IMG/VR virus record: IMGVR_UViG_3300046167_000168
Location: 1 to 45,475 of that record
DNA length: 45,475 nt
Source of the DNA: a virus
Reading direction: 5' to 3' (one strand)
Part shown: piece by piece, positions 8,006 through 26,072 of the stretch
Numbering within the stretch: the stretch's first letter is position 1
Layout of the letters: the number at the start of each line of letters is the position of its first letter
The notes under the pieces: model-generated
Seen by the model: only the letters and a program-made list of their open reading frames with translations
Databases searched by the model: none
What the model was told of the DNA's origin: nothing
Program-made: the position numbers and the translations under genes

Positions 8006-8611
8006 ATGAACGAAGAATATAATCAAATGGTTTTAACAGGCGGAAGACCTATTCCGGGTCAAAGTCTAACAAGCGATCCTTCAAATCCAGCGCCGTATGA
8101 AAAACCTCCACAATATACTTCAGTTCATGAGGCGTCAGAAGATATTTTTGAAGGGCTTATCGAAGAGCAGGCGTATCAAGAGATTTTAAATTTGTTGACT
8201 GAGAATGTACCTGTCATGGACATTGTACAGACTCTTTTGTTTACTGGATTTAAAGAAGGCAAATGGAATCCTGATTTGATGCTGATGCTTGTTGAGCCTG
8301 TAGCTTATATGCTGTTGGCTCTTGCTGAACGTGCAGGACTTGATCCAAAGATCTACCAAGGCGAAGAAGACGACGACGCTGAAGAGCGCGTGTTGGGTGT
8401 TGAGTTTAGAAAAGAAAAGATATCTCGAATTAAAAAACTTGCTGAGATTGGTAAAGCACCTTCAAGCGCTATCACACCTGAGATGGTAGAGACAATAGAA
8501 GCATTGCCTGTTACAGAAGTGCCAAGTCTTATGGAGCGTCCTCCAGAGGCACAAGCCCCTACACAAGAAAGCCTAATGGCTCCTCCATCCGTTGAAGAGG
8601 AAGAAGTATAA
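8006..8611 (+). CDS. Virion-associated hypothetical protein
   Basis: 201 residues. AAGGAA precedes the ATG. The N-terminus is proline-rich (GGRPIPGQSLTSDPSNPAP), followed by a helical middle containing a hydrophobic run (about residues 90-105, PDLMLMLVEPVAYMLLALAE) and an acidic, proline-rich tail ending EEEEV. I recognise the N-terminal GQSLTSDPSNPAPYEKPP style from structural regions of other marine phages but know no function. The stop and the next start overlap by one base (TAATG), so it is co-translated with the next virion gene. Confidence 0.75.
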   Translation: MNEEYNQMVLTGGRPIPGQSLTSDPSNPAPYEKPPQYTSVHEASEDIFEGLIEEQAYQEILNLLTENVPVMDIVQTLLFTGFKEGKWNPDLMLMLVEPVAYMLLALAERAGLDPKIYQGEEDDDAEERVLGVEFRKEKISRIKKLAEIGKAPSSAITPEMVETIEALPVTEVPSLMERPPEAQAPTQESLMAPPSVEEEEV

Positions 8612-16371: not shown

Positions 16372-17289
16372 TTATATCTCACAGTTATTACCAGTACATG
16401 CAAGCGTCTGTGATCCTTCTGTCATATCACTTTCTTCAGTAATGTCCCACGACATTTCAGTAGGAAAATCAGCAACCAGTGTTTCATATTCTTCTTCACT
16501 GATAGGCTCATAAGGTGCTTGTTGATATGTGTGCTCGCTATATGGTAAGAAACTAATACCACTAATCTTGTCAAACTTATTGTACAACCACTGGCCTACC
16601 TCAAGGAACTCGTCGTCACGATAGTAACACGTCATTGAAGGCTTGTGTTCACACCAAAAGTCTTGGTAGATTTCCCAAAGCTCAAGCTGTTCCATAGCAC
16701 CCATCTCAGAGGCCGTCACAGCCCCGTCAGGAGACTTTATAGGAAAGGAGAATACCTTAGTACTAGGAGACATTACATCGTCTTCTACGGGGATTCCTGA
16801 GGCTTCAAGGACTTGGCAGAGGGGGTCTCTAGAGTCTGCTCGAACTCGTCTAATGTATTGAGATGAATATCTAGGGTGGATTCCACTCGCGCTATCAACA
16901 AGCTGACTAACAGTGCCGCTAGGCTTAATGGCGGTAATAGCAGTAGAAACTTCAATACCAAGAATATCAGCCCATCGTCTGTTGGTTTCGACGGCTTCTT
17001 CGCGTAGTTCTGTGAGCCACGTCTTAAGGACACCTTTGTCTCTCCTTCCCGACAACGTCGGATGATCCATAATGCCTGTTAAGCTAACGCCCAACAAGGC
17101 CTCTTCTTCTGTGTTGTTCTTCCACACCTTTCTCAAGTATCTGAAATTGGTAAGGGTAGCTTGTAAAGTTCCAAGGATAGTCGCAGTACGTACTTTCCGT
17201 TTGAGGTCTGAGAGACTATCGGACGACCTGACAACAACCTCTGATAGATTGCAGAATTGGTAGGGTCCGTAAGATGATTTCGCTAGCAT
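16372..17289 (-). CDS. nrdJ: Class II ribonucleotide reductase, C-terminal fragment
   Basis: 305 residues starting at the ATG at 17289, whose first seven bases (ATGCTAG) overlap the stop of the N-terminal fragment. It begins MLAKSSYG, then rejoins the family exactly at PYQFCNLSEVVVR. C13 is equivalent to redox Cys419 of Lactobacillus leichmannii RNR. Further family blocks are LLGVSLTGIMDHP, the phosphate-loop region IKPSGTVSQLVDSASGIHPR, and the C-terminal CX4C shuttle (C298 and C303, CTGNNC). Together with the upstream fragment it should reduce ribonucleotides using adenosylcobalamin. The conserved GEIILR loop is not encoded in this frame but is present out of frame just before PYQFC. Either a genes-in-pieces enzyme or frame errors in the sequence. 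Confidence 0.85.
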   Translation of the reverse strand: MLAKSSYGPYQFCNLSEVVVRSSDSLSDLKRKVRTATILGTLQATLTNFRYLRKVWKNNTEEEALLGVSLTGIMDHPTLSGRRDKGVLKTWLTELREEAVETNRRWADILGIEVSTAITAIKPSGTVSQLVDSASGIHPRYSSQYIRRVRADSRDPLCQVLEASGIPVEDDVMSPSTKVFSFPIKSPDGAVTASEMGAMEQLELWEIYQDFWCEHKPSMTCYYRDDEFLEVGQWLYNKFDKISGISFLPYSEHTYQQAPYEPISEEEYETLVADFPTEMSWDITEESDMTEGSQTLACTGNNCEI

Positions 17290-18245
17290 GGATTAGTTCC
17301 AAAGTCATAGGTAGCATCTCTTCGCTCGTTCTTTGCAGCTTGCTTTTGACTTGCGACTCTAGAGAACATACCTCGCTCTCCTGAACGGGACTCGTATAAA
17401 CTTTTCCACTCATTTAAAAATGCCTCAAAGTCTGGCTTCTCTGTATAACATGCACTATTGTTCGCTAGTCCCCGTTGGGGATTATCTTGCCACCACTGGC
17501 CTGACTTGCATCGTCGGAGTCTATCGTCAGTGAGGTTAGATAAACTGATGAGAGCGGACCTGCGTACACCGCCGACGACGACGATCTGTGCAATCTTACA
17601 GCAGAGATCATGACATTCGATGGAACTAAGTTTACGTCCAGCAGCCTCCCGAAAGACGCTGACTGTGAAGTTGAACAGATCGACAAGAGGCTCTGGACCA
17701 GACGCTCTACCTCCAAAGGTTTTAAGGGCTGCCCCTGCAGATCGTACTCCAGACACGTCCCATTTTGGAAGTTGACCTGAATAGAGCAAGCTAACAAGTT
17801 CCCTGTAAGCTTTAGCCCATCCAATTTTACTGTCGGCGACATGTATAACGGTATCGGTTTCATGGAATTCCTCTGCTACTTCTGGTAATTTTGTTACGTA
17901 CTGACGCTCAACAGAGAAGCCTACGCCTGTACCACACATCAAGACGTACATCATTTCGTCAAACGCTTTTGGGTGGTCGATAGGCATATAACTACAGTTG
18001 AAGCCAGCAACATTATCACGATCCAGCGCTTCACCAGCAGTCATCAAAGCCCTCATACTGGGCATAACATCTAAGCTGTGGATGTCTGCAAACATTCCGT
18101 TAGCCTGCTCTAGTGTTAGCTTACCCTTCTCAATCCAGAAGTTCAAGTACCTGTCGATTGTTTCTTCCCAAGTCTCGCGCCGCTGTTCTTCTGGTAGGTA
18201 ACGTGCGTATCGTGACTTGTGAATGTATTGTTGATATAGATCCAT
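17283..18245 (-). CDS. nrdJ: Class II ribonucleotide reductase, N-terminal fragment
   Basis: 320 residues. AAGGAG lies seven bases upstream of the ATG, and the start overlaps the preceding stop (TAATG). The fragment has the class II monomeric reductase N-terminal half: MPSMRALMTAG, GFNCSYMPID (C84, equivalent to redox Cys119), MCGTGVGFSVER, and the thiyl-radical loop FGTNPC, where C320 (equivalent to Cys408) is the very last residue before a TAG. A complete family member would continue GEIILRP. The reaction is nucleotide to deoxynucleotide, feeding phage DNA synthesis and using cobalamin instead of an iron cofactor, as in many marine phages. Alone, this fragment lacks Cys419 and the C-terminal shuttle cysteines, so it cannot be active without the second fragment. 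Confidence 0.87.
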   Translation of the reverse strand: MDLYQQYIHKSRYARYLPEEQRRETWEETIDRYLNFWIEKGKLTLEQANGMFADIHSLDVMPSMRALMTAGEALDRDNVAGFNCSYMPIDHPKAFDEMMYVLMCGTGVGFSVERQYVTKLPEVAEEFHETDTVIHVADSKIGWAKAYRELVSLLYSGQLPKWDVSGVRSAGAALKTFGGRASGPEPLVDLFNFTVSVFREAAGRKLSSIECHDLCCKIAQIVVVGGVRRSALISLSNLTDDRLRRCKSGQWWQDNPQRGLANNSACYTEKPDFEAFLNEWKSLYESRSGERGMFSRVASQKQAAKNERRDATYDFGTNPC

Positions 18246-18967: not shown

Positions 18968-19248
18968 GAATTCATCACTGATTGTATGTCGCTTAGTGTA
19001 AAGGAATCAATGGGTCTTTCAGGATACATAACCACTAACTGCTTCAGTTTCTTCCTAACCCATCGAGGTGAAAAGGTACTTAGAAAAAACTTGTTGTTGG
19101 CGTAGACATGAGTTTGATCGGGCAAGAGTTCTTTGTAATTATTAATAGTGATTTGGTTAGCTTCTTCTTCCGATACTAATGTTTTAAGCCAAGCAACAAG
19201 TATAATTCCTACCTGTTTGTTTATTCTTTTTATCTTCCTTTGATTCAT
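18940..19248 (-). CDS. Hypothetical protein
   Basis: 102 residues. The N-terminus is basic (MNQRKIKRINKQ) with one moderately hydrophobic helix (VGIILVAWLKTLV); a basic patch lies near residue 65 (RWVRKKLKQLVVMYPERP). The ATG overlaps the exonuclease stop by four bases. The pattern may indicate a small DNA-binding helical protein acting with the nuclease genes around it. No family recognised. Confidence 0.6.
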   Translation of the reverse strand: MNQRKIKRINKQVGIILVAWLKTLVSEEEANQITINNYKELLPDQTHVYANNKFFLSTFSPRWVRKKLKQLVVMYPERPIDSFTLSDIQSVMNSWKMKTLET

Positions 19249-19802
19249 AAGATTTCTTCTACGCGAGGTTCTGATACAACCTTCGTAAAGTACACAGGGC
19301 CACTAGAGTAAGCAAAAGATCGAAGACCTTGACCGTCGTTAGCGTCTGCGTAGCATTCAAATTTATAGGGACAGTATGAGCATCCTGAGGGTAATTTCAT
19401 GTTGCCTTTTTTACCGTCAGAAATAGTATTATAACATCGATCTGGAGGTGTGTCAAGACTTAAAGCCTTACGAACGTCTTTAATTTTCTGTTCGATGTTA
19501 GGCTTCTCTAAATCCTCAGGCTGGAACAAGCACAACTCGCCGCTCTCTTTGTTGATAACAAGGAAGCCTCCATCGTCTGTGTTCTCTGCAGCCTCGTAGC
19601 CAGCAAGCTGTGGCAGATAACCAAAGGGATCATTGTCAGCTAAGGACCCATCGACAAATTTCTTAAAAGAGTAACGAGAAGCAGACTTGACATCTACCAC
19701 TTGCCCGTTGATCTTACAGTCCATGTGGCCTTTGATGCCAGAGACACTAATCTCTTTCTGCTCTGATGAAACCTCGTGACCAGCCAGTCGAACCAACATC
19801 AA
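19245..19802 (-). CDS. RecB/Cas4-like exonuclease, C-terminal part (frame-broken gene)
   Basis: The catalytic half of a PD-(D/E)XK exonuclease: GIKGHMDCKINGQVVDVKSAS gives D28, D37 and K39, followed by QLAGYE (motif with Q) and a C-terminal C-x2-C-x5-C cluster (CSYCPYKFEC) like the metal or iron-sulfur clasp of AddB/Cas4 nucleases. The nominal TTG or ATG start (19802 or 19799) is not the real beginning: the same frame is open back to about 19871 and reads family-like sequence (APTQIKFLYGHILEEIV). The N-terminal part is in the other frame (19856-20101). The likely role is 5'-3' DNA degradation or recombination in replication. Whether a functional protein is made depends on the frame break. Confidence 0.75.
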   Translation of the reverse strand: MMLVRLAGHEVSSEQKEISVSGIKGHMDCKINGQVVDVKSASRYSFKKFVDGSLADNDPFGYLPQLAGYEAAENTDDGGFLVINKESGELCLFQPEDLEKPNIEQKIKDVRKALSLDTPPDRCYNTISDGKKGNMKLPSGCSYCPYKFECYADANDGQGLRSFAYSSGPVYFTKVVSEPRVEEIL

Positions 19803-20704: not shown

Positions 20705-22465
20705 TTAGTGTGTTTCACTCCAACTATCTCCTATTTGATACTCGCCTGTCAACCCACAACGTAAATTAAACTCTAGTCCTGCTTGTTCAATAGCCTCGAC
20801 ACCCAGCTCTCCTACACGCTGAGAGACATCTTCGAGTGCTTCGATCTGCCATTCGTCATGCACATTAGCTACGAAGTGTGCGTCCATGCCGGACAGCTTA
20901 TCGTTTAAGATAACAAGTCCTTTCTTCATAACTATTGCGCCTGCCCCTTGAAGCAGTGTGTTGAGTGCGGCGTGTTCAGATCTTACAAACAACTTGCGTC
21001 CGTCTAGCCCCTTGAGGTAGCCACGCTTTGCCGCTCTTGCAACTCTGTCTTTAAGAACTTTAAATGCAGGGAGATTATCGAAGAAAGATTGTCTAAGTCG
21101 TCCACCATCGTCTGCGTTTCCTCCGACCACCGTTCCAAGCTTCGCATCTCCTGCTCCGTACAAGAGTGCATAGATGAAAGTTTTTGCCTGATTTCTTGAT
21201 TCAAGTCCCGCAGCCATTTGATTTGCTGTGTGTATGTCTCCGTTGAGAAGCTCATAAGTAAATCCCTCATCGTTCATATAGTGTGCCAGCATCCTTAGTT
21301 CCAAGCCGCTGGCGTCTATGCCCACAAGTTTATACCCATCCATCACCGTCCAGCACTGTCGGCACTCTTTACCATAAGGACTTCCGGTGCTAGGAACCTG
21401 CGCCATGTTCGGATGACTGTGTGTCATGCGTCCTGTCACTGCGCCGTTGGTATTAACAAACCCACGAACCCGTCCATCATCTTCCACAACCTTGAACCAT
21501 GAAGTTATCTGAGCAATACGCTTTTGAAGCATAAGATACTTAGCAATAACTGCAGCTTCAGGAATGTCCTTTATCTTTGACAGGACTTTTTCATCAACAA
21601 TTGGCTGTCCCGTAGGCGTAAATTTTGTAGGCTTCCAACCAAACTCCACGAGATATTCTCCAATTTGTTTCCTAGAGCCAAGGTTAAAAGGTTCAGAATC
21701 ACAACGAACAAGATGCTCGTTCGGATTCTCATTCGCCTTTTCGTACTCCTCATCTGACAGTCTGACCTTCTTGGTTTCACCTTTTAATTGTGCCATCTTA
21801 GAAACCTTACCAGCTTTTGTCATAAGAGGGACAAGAGTTAACTGTGTTTCTCGTGGCCTGAAAGTTTTGTGAACAAGCTTCTCAGCCTGTGATATGTTTT
21901 CATTTAGTTCAGCCAGTAAGCTCATGGCGTGTTTTTCATCTAGCAAGAATCCACGATCTCGCTGTGCCTGCATGACTCGATACACAGAGTGTTCTAAAGC
22001 AACGGCATCTTTACTAAATCCTGCTGCCTCGACACGCGCAAGATGCTGATAGACCTTATGATTTAGTGACACGTCTTGTCTGCAATATGCCATCATCTCC
22101 GGCGAAAAGCTTTCAAAATCTTCGAACTCAATCTTCTTGTGTCGTAGCCTGTAGCCCCATCCTTCGAGGCCGTGACCCCCTTCTCGTGTTGGGTTGAACA
22201 GTCGAGATAGTACGAGAGTATCTATGATGAACCGATTGCCATCATCGAGATCAGAGCGAAGAAGTTTCTTGACTACAGGTATATCATATCCAAGGATGTT
22301 GTGACCGATAAGTTCTTTAGACTCTTCGAGCAGCTTGACGCCTTGATCTAATTGCTCTGGTCCAAACTCATAGAACTTCTTAGTTGCTGTGTCCATCGCA
22401 ACAATACAAAAGACCTCAGTAGGATCGAGTCCGTTAGCTTCGATATCAAAAACATAGCTTGTCAT
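20705..22465 (-). CDS. Family A DNA polymerase with 3'-5' exonuclease
   Basis: 586 residues. Exonuclease: ExoI D7/E9 (FDIEANGL), ExoII D61 (GHNILGYDIPVV), ExoIII Y127/D131 (YCRQD). Polymerase: motif A D384 (VGIDASGLELR), motif B R424 to Y436-G437 (RNQAKTFIYALLYGAG), motif C H536-D537-E538 (NVHDEW). All catalytic residues are intact. The position equivalent to E. coli Pol I F762 is Y432, as in T7, which is known to lower discrimination against dideoxynucleotides and is associated with fast-replicating lytic phages. There is no 5'-3' exonuclease domain and no obvious T7-like thioredoxin-binding loop. It overlaps the helicase gene by four bases. It copies phage DNA with the primase-helicase and SSB. 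Confidence 0.95.
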   Translation of the reverse strand: MTSYVFDIEANGLDPTEVFCIVAMDTATKKFYEFGPEQLDQGVKLLEESKELIGHNILGYDIPVVKKLLRSDLDDGNRFIIDTLVLSRLFNPTREGGHGLEGWGYRLRHKKIEFEDFESFSPEMMAYCRQDVSLNHKVYQHLARVEAAGFSKDAVALEHSVYRVMQAQRDRGFLLDEKHAMSLLAELNENISQAEKLVHKTFRPRETQLTLVPLMTKAGKVSKMAQLKGETKKVRLSDEEYEKANENPNEHLVRCDSEPFNLGSRKQIGEYLVEFGWKPTKFTPTGQPIVDEKVLSKIKDIPEAAVIAKYLMLQKRIAQITSWFKVVEDDGRVRGFVNTNGAVTGRMTHSHPNMAQVPSTGSPYGKECRQCWTVMDGYKLVGIDASGLELRMLAHYMNDEGFTYELLNGDIHTANQMAAGLESRNQAKTFIYALLYGAGDAKLGTVVGGNADDGGRLRQSFFDNLPAFKVLKDRVARAAKRGYLKGLDGRKLFVRSEHAALNTLLQGAGAIVMKKGLVILNDKLSGMDAHFVANVHDEWQIEALEDVSQRVGELGVEAIEQAGLEFNLRCGLTGEYQIGDSWSETH

Positions 22466-24090
22466 ATTTCATCTCCGTCATAGTCTCCAAGGTCATCAAC
22501 AGATATTTCAGAAAGGCGTCCACTGTCTGAGTCATAGTGGAGGTGAGTGGCTAGACCAACATCCCCTGTGTATCTAGACTTTAGCACACGCACCTTGGTT
22601 GTTGAAGCAACCATAGGATCATCTGATTGTTGATTACGCTCTAAGCTTATCACGCAATCGCTCAATTGTGCTATGGACTGAGAGCCACGTAAGTGATTCA
22701 GTGCAGTTTCGATTCCGTTCTCATGGCCTCGATCCCCCTGTGTTCGTCGAAGGTGAGAGACAAGAATCATTCCACAGCCTGTCTCTTCAACAAGAGTTCG
22801 AAGCCTGTGCATGATCATGTCAATAGCCTTACGCTCATCAGGGTCATCAGAAAGCAGCACGAGCATATGAAGGTGATCAAGTATTATCCACTTACAGTCG
22901 CAGCCTATGATCATATAACGAAGCTTACTAAAAACACTTTCAAGATCGTTCATGCCAAGGTGTCCATACACCCACACACGATCCTTGTTCTCTCCTCCAA
23001 ACATCTGGTGGTGTATCTGTCGGAGATCGTCTTGATCAAAAAGATTACGGACGCTGTCGAGGTGTAGTCTGGCGTCGGCTTCGATGGATAGAATACCGTC
23101 GATAGTTCTCTGCCAGTTCTCTTCAAGGGCCATGACGCCCACGTTGTCTTTGGTCTTCTTAATGAGCCAGTGTTCTAGCTCACGGGTGACACTTGATTTT
23201 CCAAGCCCTGTACCACCCGTCAATGTAACTAATTCACCCGCACGAAGACCTTCTAGTTTTTCGTTCAGCCCTACCCAAGGGAAAGGCACTGAGTCTTTTC
23301 GTGTGCGAGTGAGATAGTTTTCTACGTTCTCAGATACATTCAAGACTCCAGAGGGTGTGTATAACTTGGAGTTCCACCAGTACTGGACGTAGGCTTTGTG
23401 TTGCGAACCGCGCAACATGTCATTGGCGTCTTTGTAATCGACGGGCAGTGACATGATCTTTGCTTTACCGGGACGCAATAGTTTGGCTACCTTTCGAGCA
23501 GCCTCTTCCCCCACCTTATCAGTGTCAAAGTTAATGATGATGTTATCGAAGGACTCTAAGAACTCTAGGTTCTCCTTAACATCACGATCAGCAGACTGTG
23601 CGCCATTACGAATGGAAACAACAGGCCACTGTGAACCCATGAGTTCATAGGCTGACATGGCATCTACTTCACCTTCCACAATGGTTACGTACTTGCCACC
23701 ACTTTGAAATAGCTGTTGACCAAAGAGACCAACATTTCTAGATTCACCTTGCCATGTAAAGTTTTTATCAGGCTTGCGAGTCTTTGATCCTACTCGCTCG
23801 CTGCCAGAATAGTACGGGTAAACGTGCTCGACTATTTGACCTTTTGAATTCTTTGTGGATTTAACTCCGTATTTCTTAGCCGTTGCCAGACTGATTCCTC
23901 TGTCTGTTAGGGCGTAGTATTCACCGTCGTCCATAGACTGCCTCGATGATATTGGAGTGACGTTATCAAGTTTATTACTTGGGATGAAAACACCGCAGCT
24001 AAAACATTTGATGGAGCCATCGTCGTTCATCGCTGCGGGATCAGATCCCCCACACTCAGGGCAGGGGATGTGAGTTTTTTTAAATGCCAT
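22462..24090 (-). CDS. Primase-helicase (T7 gp4-like)
   Basis: 542 residues from the ATG at 24090 (MAFKKTHIPCPEC), chosen because GAGGA lies just upstream and the zinc site starts there. The zinc-binding domain is C10, C13, C29, C32. The TOPRIM domain has E139/D143 (IVEGEVDAMSAYEL) and D189-x-D191 (NFDTD). The RecA-like helicase has Walker A (GGTGLGKS, 292-299), Walker B-like WIILDHLHML (D405) and later SHLRR. It unwinds DNA and makes primers at the fork. The acidic C-terminus ends DYDGDEI, as does the SSB next door (DGDEI). In T7, the gp4 tail docks on the polymerase, so this is likely a shared polymerase-binding tail. It overlaps the polymerase start by four bases. Confidence 0.93.
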   Translation of the reverse strand: MAFKKTHIPCPECGGSDPAAMNDDGSIKCFSCGVFIPSNKLDNVTPISSRQSMDDGEYYALTDRGISLATAKKYGVKSTKNSKGQIVEHVYPYYSGSERVGSKTRKPDKNFTWQGESRNVGLFGQQLFQSGGKYVTIVEGEVDAMSAYELMGSQWPVVSIRNGAQSADRDVKENLEFLESFDNIIINFDTDKVGEEAARKVAKLLRPGKAKIMSLPVDYKDANDMLRGSQHKAYVQYWWNSKLYTPSGVLNVSENVENYLTRTRKDSVPFPWVGLNEKLEGLRAGELVTLTGGTGLGKSSVTRELEHWLIKKTKDNVGVMALEENWQRTIDGILSIEADARLHLDSVRNLFDQDDLRQIHHQMFGGENKDRVWVYGHLGMNDLESVFSKLRYMIIGCDCKWIILDHLHMLVLLSDDPDERKAIDMIMHRLRTLVEETGCGMILVSHLRRTQGDRGHENGIETALNHLRGSQSIAQLSDCVISLERNQQSDDPMVASTTKVRVLKSRYTGDVGLATHLHYDSDSGRLSEISVDDLGDYDGDEI

Positions 24091-24091
24091 G

Positions 24092-24322
24092 TTAGTCCTC
24101 GATGACTTCGGCTTCCTCAATGAAAACAGCATCTTCGGTCAAGTACTCTTGAACCTTAGAGTGTAGAGCAACTGCTGCTGCTTGTGCGATAACGACACGA
24201 TCTTCTAGGGATCGCACGTCTTGTTCTGCTGTTACCAAAAGCTGGAAAGCTTTCTGCCCTTCAGCAGGCAAGAGGGTTACGTCATAAGACGTATCGTTGT
24301 GTGTGTAAATAACATTAGACAT
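24092..24322 (-). CDS. Small helical protein between SSB and helicase
   Basis: 76 residues. The start overlaps the SSB stop (TAATG) and the stop is one base before the helicase ATG. The protein starts with a short beta hairpin (VIYTHNDTSYDVTLL), then a long helix (AFQLLVTAEQDVRSLEDRVV) and an acidic tail (IEEAEVIED). It resembles small phage proteins that begin with a xxxYxxxxLxxEAQ pattern (DUF6447-like), though I cannot confirm the match. Position suggests a replisome accessory. Confidence 0.7.
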   Translation of the reverse strand: MSNVIYTHNDTSYDVTLLPAEGQKAFQLLVTAEQDVRSLEDRVVIAQAAAVALHSKVQEYLTEDAVFIEEAEVIED

Positions 24323-24747
24323 TATATTTCGTCTCCGTCTCCGTCTTCGATATCAAACTCAGAACCATCTGGTGAGTTATATTCTACAAGATCAAGGACT
24401 TGCATTGCTTGGAAATCCAAACCCTTAAATACTTGCCCGTTCCACTTAGTGTCCCACTCCTTGTATTGGACCTTAACGTGTGAACCATTACCAACATTCA
24501 CATCAATCTCTCGCTTACTCTTGTCATAAAGCCTAGGCGCTTGACGAACCATGCCGTCCTTGCCATCGACCTTACGCTTGATGATCAACGCAGGGCCTTC
24601 TTCCATGTCTTTGACTGTGAAACCACGATCACGGAATGAATCAGCTGTTGAATCATCGACAACAAGATTAACTGAGTATGCTGGTGTAAACTTTGTGTTA
24701 GGTGTAGTAACAAAAGACCAGTATGCTTTGCCTTCAATCACTGCCAT
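24322..24747 (-). CDS. Single-stranded DNA-binding protein (T7 gp2.5-like)
   Basis: 141 residues. It has an OB-fold-like protein core: KAYWSFVTTPNTKFTPAYSV, LIIKRKVDGKDG and VGNGSHVKVQYKEWDTKWNG are blocks I recognise from gp2.5-type SSBs of marine phages. The C-terminus is very acidic and ends EFDIEDGDGDEI, the feature by which SSBs contact polymerase and helicase. It coats ssDNA and coordinates lagging-strand synthesis. It is first in the core replication block (SSB, small protein, helicase, polymerase), all overlapped by one to four bases or nearly touching. In gp2.5 the terminal residue is F; here it is I. Confidence 0.85.
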   Translation of the reverse strand: MAVIEGKAYWSFVTTPNTKFTPAYSVNLVVDDSTADSFRDRGFTVKDMEEGPALIIKRKVDGKDGMVRQAPRLYDKSKREIDVNVGNGSHVKVQYKEWDTKWNGQVFKGLDFQAMQVLDLVEYNSPDGSEFDIEDGDGDEI

Positions 24748-25445: not shown

Positions 25446-25724
25446 CTATATCATATTAACATATTCATCATTGATGATTGTTTGTATGTGGACGTACCCT
25501 TCAGGCCAATATGTATAAGACTCCTTCAAGGCCTTCGCTGTCCTATGTACTGACGCCTCGAAGTGCTCATACAACCCTAGTTCGTCCTTACAGTACCAGA
25601 AGGGTATCCGCAGCACTGGCTCTGCTGGCCCACGTTCCTCATAGTAAACAATAATTTCAGCGTCGTTACCTATAGGTCCGTCGTTACCAAAGTGTTTCGA
25701 ATGATTGTTCTCTGGTTGTTTCAT
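25446..25724 (-). CDS. Hypothetical protein
   Basis: 92 residues, MKQPENNHSKHFGNDGPIGN onward, with beta-like segments (AEIIVYYEERG, VLRIPFWYC) and an aromatic C-terminus (TYWPEGYVHIQTIIND). The start overlaps the preceding stop as ATGA. The composition suggests a small globular beta protein; no motif assigned. It is one of the early small-protein train. Confidence 0.62.
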   Translation of the reverse strand: MKQPENNHSKHFGNDGPIGNDAEIIVYYEERGPAEPVLRIPFWYCKDELGLYEHFEASVHRTAKALKESYTYWPEGYVHIQTIINDEYVNMI

Positions 25725-25972
25725 AACTCACTCTCCGGTAGCTCATCACTCGCTAAGAACAGGATCTTATCTAGCATTTGTTTTGTCATTACTACGTTAC
25801 CCCTATCGTCTAGGGTGTACTCGAAATCCTTACGGATCACAAACGGAATACCTCCCCAAGGATCTCTCTTCATGATGTCATTGGTCACAGTCCTTGCCTG
25901 CGTGTAGCCTTGACAGTAAACAGAATAGTCTCCGCCTGTGACCTCGTAGATTGATGCTTCATTTATCAGCAT
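25721..25972 (-). CDS. Hypothetical protein
   Basis: 83 residues from the ATG at 25972 (MLINEASIYEVTGGDY), which has AAAGGAG ten bases upstream; a longer reading from 26020 would run through the small membrane peptide gene and lacks a binding site. Beta-rich, with YSVYCQGYTQARTVTNDI and FEYTLDDRGNVVMTK. It overlaps the next gene by four bases (ATGA). Function unknown. Confidence 0.62.
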   Translation of the reverse strand: MLINEASIYEVTGGDYSVYCQGYTQARTVTNDIMKRDPWGGIPFVIRKDFEYTLDDRGNVVMTKQMLDKILFLASDELPESEL

Positions 25973-25985
25973 TGTTTGTGCTCCT

Positions 25986-26072
25986 TTAAGAGACGATGAA
26001 GTTAACGTAAGCCAACGCAAACGCTGGCGAAGCTAAGATTGCAAGTATCAAATAAGCTTGTAGCATTTTCAT
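25986..26072 (-). CDS. 28-residue membrane peptide
   Basis: MKMLQAYLILAILASPAFAL onward, ending NFIVS. GAGGAG lies eight bases before the ATG at 26072, in the end of the upstream gene, and the ribosome binding site of the next gene follows the TAA. It is one hydrophobic segment that could be a membrane span or a signal-peptide-like sequence (ASPAFA). It is the smallest credible gene in the window; packing and binding site are the evidence. Confidence 0.5.
   Translation of the reverse strand: MKMLQAYLILAILASPAFALAYVNFIVS

Follow-up and report, generated by a model that had tools for sequence, protein, structure and literature searches.

A virus record from IMG/VR (IMGVR_UViG_3300046167_000168; 45,475 bases, analyzed at full length and referred to here as the window) carries replication genes on its minus strand, among them a gp4-like primase-helicase and a gp2.5-like single-stranded DNA-binding protein (SSB) that terminate in the same five residues, DGDEI. 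We consider it likely that these are ordinary acidic tails of the T7 type, and that their identity stems from translational coupling together with common ancestry. The match appears to derive mostly from the start signals of the following genes, which are written into both gene ends, and only partly from a role in gripping the polymerase.

According to this explanation, both tails would be inherited from T7-like replisome proteins as flexible, acidic extensions with a bulky hydrophobic cap, and by analogy with T7 they would hold the polymerase. In the mRNA, the closing codons of each gene would also serve as the ribosome-binding site for the gene that follows, with GGAG read in the frame GGA-GAY and thus yielding Gly-Asp. 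At the helicase end, the ATGA overlap with the polymerase start forces a final codon of the form NNA, so that Phe is excluded and ATA (Ile) or CTA/TTA (Leu) is used instead. At the SSB end, Ile would be kept by selection on the protein, having derived from a Leu-ended ancestor. We infer both the use of the tail GGAG by ribosomes and the binding of the tails to the polymerase.

On the minus strand, GDYDGDEI closes the helicase open reading frame (ORF; stop at 22462), and EDGDGDEI closes the SSB ORF. The common ending described in an earlier note on this DNA is exact, and a degenerate search for D-G-D-E-I-stop across all 45,475 bases returned these two sites only. The interval flagged there (22462-24360) comprises the helicase and a 76-amino-acid (aa) ORF, but takes in just the 3' end of the SSB gene. 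For comparison, five scans of viral contigs, together with the window, gave 276 loci with a complete helicase and SSB on one strand, corresponding to 195 unique pairs (some contigs are present as two loci). A tree of 88 representatives was constructed with a quick method and no bootstrap, after 8 of the 195 pairs had been left out for a short helicase or SSB. Clustering kept near-identical sequences if their endings or overlap class differed, which somewhat inflates the number of helicase changes; L046, which sits on a very long branch, was excluded from counts of independent pairs and retained in the tree, shuffling and change-count analyses. Six of the 195 unique pairs share a five-residue ending, as does one of the 88 representatives, the window itself. 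With residue frequencies taken separately for each position in the ATGA clade, window included, the probability of such a match is 0.010 per genome. The DGDEI match is uncommon, and not extraordinary given that both tails are acidic, aliphatic-ended and GGAG-bearing.

The two gene ends are also alike over 16 nucleotides (nt), save for one C/T difference, as would be expected had this string been copied from one end to the other by gene conversion or a shared insertion. We regard such copying as highly improbable, because in the 85-percent relatives the two ends differ, with EEEDEI, EEGDEI or DEGDEI on the SSB and ELGDEI or EFGDEI on the helicase. Gene conversion between the ends was rejected on these differences and on the independence of the synonymous changes, which together indicate that the match was reached by ordinary drift.

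The DNA beneath both tails, GACGGAGAYGAAATAT, is a likely ribosome-binding site (GGAG) leading into the next start codon. At the helicase-polymerase junction, the arrangement is that of a -4 nt coupled pair, an ATGA preceded by a Shine-Dalgarno-like string (ggagatgaaATATGA at 22476-22462). Relatives share these features: a Shine-Dalgarno-like site is present at 94 of 95 SSB junctions with a -1 overlap, and a Shine-Dalgarno-like string occurs in 60 of 71 ATGA helicase tails, compared with 13 of 82 tails of non-overlapping helicases (20 of 26 and 9 of 43, respectively, among tree representatives). Other coupled gene ends of the window are likewise acidic-aliphatic (PESEL, 25721-26020, and VEEIL, 19245-19802, minus strand; EEEEV, 8006-8611, plus strand), which would be expected were Shine-Dalgarno-like codons to influence the residues at these positions.

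How the helicase gene overlaps the polymerase start, which could be scored in 185 of the 195 unique pairs, accounts for the terminal residue of the helicase. Helicases with a -4 ATGA or GTGA overlap never end in Phe (0 of 56; 32 Ile, 23 Leu and 1 Glu), while Phe is found in 71 of 76 cases in which the polymerase ATG lies within 60 nt without overlap, and in 7 of 7 with a -1 overlap. Deep overlaps give Ile in 18 of 21 cases, because the polymerase's own MxLVFDIE start is encoded in the other frame. The 20 pairs with a distant polymerase start are mixed (8 Phe, 10 Ile, 2 Leu). Phe is kept in the 4 pairs with no canonical polymerase start and in a single TTGA overlap (L145; TTTTGA, a TTG start in a 4-nt overlap), which allows TTT. 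In a first test on independent pairs, the overlap class depended in part on the tail itself. With this circularity removed, 8 independent tree pairs differed in overlap; on average, the helicase residue followed the overlap in 5.6 of them, and it went the opposite way in 0 (median p 0.031).

Two variants of this junction are found among the relatives. In L019 and L020, there is no ATG, GTG or TTG in the polymerase frame ahead of the conserved LVFDIE, and the frame opens CAT ACC ATT TTA AAT TTA GTA; this suggests a non-canonical polymerase start, perhaps ATT, that would let the helicase keep its Phe end (IPF). In part of the 63-percent clade (L094, L100, L105, L108, L109, L110, L114 and L116), an extra ORF of 58-176 aa lies between helicase and polymerase, and it is this ORF, instead of the polymerase, that uses the ATGA start.

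At the SSB end the last codon is free under TAATG, and Ile is not forced. Within the Ile clade the SSB uses all three Ile codons (ATT 14, ATA 5, ATC 4), and on the 88-representative tree its last codon shows 26 codon-state changes and 3 amino-acid changes, with 24 and 4, respectively, for the penultimate Glu. The corresponding figures for the helicase are 26 and 15 at the last codon and 53 and 41 at the fourth from the end. These codon patterns make the SSB tip look functional and tightly constrained, and that of the helicase much looser, an asymmetry that poorly fits one common pocket with equal demands.

A shared docking site was what the earlier note had suggested: on this reading, both tails would dock at one polymerase site whose pocket had switched from Phe to Ile, with the tails co-adapted. 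We consider this quite unlikely, although T7 offers a precedent. Published work describes the acidic tails of T7 gp4 as contacting two basic patches on gp5, of which one is close to the thioredoxin-binding domain and the other, at the front, is close to the separation pin (PMC12593628); the terminal Phe of the tail is called essential (PMC12230644). Matched acidic endings also occur in T7 itself (gp2.5 EDGDF, gp4 NDTDF), and among the relatives the last residues of SSB and helicase match by lineage (F/F 94, L/L 26 and I/I 23 of 195). The SSB end is strongly constrained as an amino acid, and both proteins moved from Leu to Ile on one branch.

Against this, the last residues differ in 52 of the 195 pairs (F/I 20, L/I 20, L/F 4, F/L 3, F/E 3 and A/E 2), in combinations such as EDEL with GDII, GEEF with xxSI, and EAEL with NIPF. 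On the tree, the helicase end differs in 9 independent pairs, and the SSB follows in none, its end being the same in 9 of 9. Outside the window's own clade, true pairs in the ATGA clade are no better matched than shuffled ones (mean shared ending 1.40 and 1.48, respectively, among representatives, p 0.97). The tails match by lineage, with no co-variation beyond shared descent. Of the proposed switch of terminal residue, what stands is that both proteins left Phe in this lineage and that both replaced Leu with Ile on the branch leading to the window's clade; the implied joint change is found nowhere else (0 of 9).

The polymerase provides further reason for doubt. Fifteen alignment columns of T7 gp5 (about 574-588), which hold the beta-loop with W579, the separation pin beside the front patch, and K587, are absent from the window polymerase, and T7 residues 579, 580 and 587 have no aligned counterpart; one report places W579 at the fork, on the gp5 beta-loop (PMC8472574). 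The putative equivalent of the thioredoxin-binding domain is smaller and less basic, with 11 Lys plus Arg and 10 Asp plus Glu in 56 aa, compared with 14 and 8 in 76 aa of T7. Judging from these alignments, a shared docking site may exist, but not simply that of T7. A longer hairpin in the thioredoxin-domain equivalent was a candidate for the matching pocket suggested in the note. Among the scored polymerases, all of those from genomes with Leu- or Ile-ended SSBs have it (25 of 25), and so do 5 of 58 from genomes with Phe-ended SSBs (5 of the 88 representatives were unscored). The hairpin state changes 4 times on the tree and tracks lineage, with the SSB class differing in 0 of 3 independent pairs, and we dropped the hairpin as a pocket matched to aliphatic tails, regarding it as a lineage signal and not proof.

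Could the overlap itself have set off a change in the interface? ATGA would first have deprived the helicase of its Phe, the pocket on the polymerase would have adapted to Leu or Ile, and the SSB, free in its codon, would have followed from Phe through Leu to Ile. Other lineages would have resolved the same conflict through a TTG start, an apparent non-ATG start, an extra Glu after Phe (LAF-E), or loss of Phe under deep overlap. This combined scenario is unlikely in our estimation, though it has points in its favor. Of 73 Leu- or Ile-ended SSBs, 68 come from genomes whose helicase was scored as ATGA, and the remaining five belong to four L/F pairs and one L/L pair. In the T7-like outgroups examined, SSBs as a rule end in an aromatic residue. 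Yet the clade contains only two SSB changes (Phe to Leu and Leu to Ile), which amounts to effectively one or two events. In addition, the SSB of the sister lineage L020 ends in Leu while its helicase ends in Phe, so the first change may have been in the SSB, and helicases turned to Ile by deep overlap retained a Phe-ended SSB.

The outgroups come from two more scans covering outer T7-like lineages (CRP-361-like, HTVC019P-like and named phages), in which 122 unique helicases end in Phe (78) or Tyr (44). An SSB was found for 98 of the 122; 97 of these end in Phe and one in Tyr. Direct reading also shows Phe at the end of the HTVC115P and HTVC104P SSBs, but the automatic search missed them, and these two phages were counted as having no SSB. 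Aromatic ends are thus the rule in these lineages, and aliphatic ends a departure. None of the 122 helicases has an ATGA overlap, so the outer lineages contribute no further independent overlap events. The Tyr-ended helicases are those of the HTVC019P-like group (VLDDY; L325, L407 onward), where the SSB ends in Phe wherever found.

Several observations weigh against our preferred explanation, in which coupling and ancestry produce the match. The constraint on the RNA leaves the shared penultimate Glu and the terminal Ile of the SSB unexplained. A four-nucleotide Shine-Dalgarno-like match is missing from 11 of the 71 ATGA tails, and an acidic-aliphatic composition is lacking at most of the window's other coupled ends. 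If deep overlaps are excluded, the -4 overlaps alone leave 4 independent pairs, with which significance is unreachable; moreover, the exclusion of Phe by ATGA is a necessity of the code, and the association therefore does not show that the overlap came first. Finally, SSB and helicase both took the Leu-to-Ile step on one long branch, that leading to the window's clade. If the 15 helicase changes are distributed in proportion to branch length, this coincidence has a probability of about 0.26, and we regard the joint step as coincidental or weakly supported.

Assignments of the proteins involved agree with those of the earlier note, which had named a primase-helicase and an SSB and compared them with T7 gp4 and gp2.5; matches to phrog, Pfam and PDB entries bear this out (Table 1). 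The best PDB fold match of the SSB is T7 gp2.5 (1je5, E 5.9e-6). Its model has a predicted local distance difference test score (pLDDT) of 76, falling below 50 over residues 125-141, where the C-terminal tail (last ten residues DIEDGDGDEI) is disordered in the model. The primase-helicase carries Pfam DnaB_C and Toprim domains, matches phrog_239 (E 2e-170) and 6n7i_A (E 2e-82 across residues 7-529), and is collinear with T7 gp4; its start at 24090 (MAFKK) is more likely than the first in-frame ATG at 24132. The polymerase has a family A fold with an exonuclease domain (555 residues aligned to 2ajq_F, root mean square deviation 3.2). For the 76-aa ORF, comparison of the window's proteins with domains and profiles gave no family match.

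Table 1. Features of the SSB-helicase-polymerase region, in window coordinates
Feature	Position	Strand	Remarks
SSB gene, gp2.5-like, 141 aa	24322..24747	minus	phrog_112 E 6e-7; fold match 1je5
SSB tail codons DGDEI, GAC GGA GAC GAA ATA (then TAA)	24325..24339	minus	
Shine-Dalgarno-like GGAG within SSB tail	24333..24336	minus	10 nt ahead of next ATG
TAATG, SSB stop / 76-aa ORF start	24320..24324	minus	1-nt overlap
76-aa ORF between SSB and helicase	24092..24322	minus	ends EVIED over GAGG
Primase-helicase gene, gp4-like, 542 aa	22462..24090	minus	phrog_239, 6n7i_A; ends DYDGDEI
Helicase tail codons DGDEI, GAC GGA GAT GAA ATA (then TGA)	22465..22479	minus	
Shine-Dalgarno-like GGAG within helicase tail	22473..22476	minus	7 nt ahead of polymerase ATG
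ATGA, helicase stop / polymerase start	22462..22465	minus	4-nt overlap
Family A DNA polymerase, T7 gp5-like, 586 aa	20705..22465	minus	model pLDDT 91; 2ajq_F Z 38.5
Polymerase residues 199-259, aligned to T7 thioredoxin-binding domain (258-333)	21689..21871	minus	shorter, less basic
Polymerase residues 477-480, site of missing T7 beta-loop	21026..21037	minus	15 alignment columns absent

Elsewhere in the window, a ribonucleotide reductase (phrog_367) is encoded in two slightly overlapping minus-strand ORFs (16372-17289 and 17283-18245), which cover profile positions 32-388 and 395-696; the first of the two contains a Pfam insertion domain of B12-dependent ribonucleotide reductases.

Overlaps of -4 nt (ATGA) and -1 nt (TAATG) are described, in the accessible parts of two reports, as the commonest among prokaryotic gene pairs and are tied there to termination-reinitiation (PMC10666635, PMC6728339). 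Unlike in such coupled pairs generally, the overlap here also fixes the last residue of a replisome tail, of which the available portion of the overlap literature makes no mention (PMC10666635). Nor did titles and abstract openings, from literature that included a minority of the subscription journals, mention C-terminal residues set by overlap or co-variation of tails. C-terminal tips are usually taken as binding motifs, but the following gene's start signal can dictate part of a tip, and a match between the tips of two proteins is thus not in itself evidence of a common partner. The natural series of Phe, Tyr, Leu and Ile allows one to ask how much the anchor residue of a T7-type tail matters. 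Were the SSB and the polymerase pocket indeed to have followed an overlap-driven change in the helicase, a rule of gene overlap would have reshaped a replisome interface.

The C-terminal tip of Escherichia coli SSB, DDDIPF, is acidic and ends in Phe. Many relatives carry a similar ending, IPF or LPF, on the helicase and not on the SSB; in Phe-ended relatives such as L037, L042 and L122, the helicase ends DIPF, IIPF, DLPF or similar and the adjoining SSB EEF, SEF or DEF. The tails of the window, unlike the E. coli tip, have neither Pro nor Phe. The closest likeness is to the T7 replisome, with flexible, acidic, hydrophobic-capped tails on a gp2.5-like SSB and a gp4-like primase-helicase, and a gp5-like polymerase adjoining. 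It departs from T7 in that neither protein ends in an aromatic residue (both end in Ile, those of T7 in Phe), that the polymerase is without the gp5 beta-loop, and that the helicase tail overlaps the start of the polymerase, whereas in T7 gp4 and gp5 are separated by other genes.

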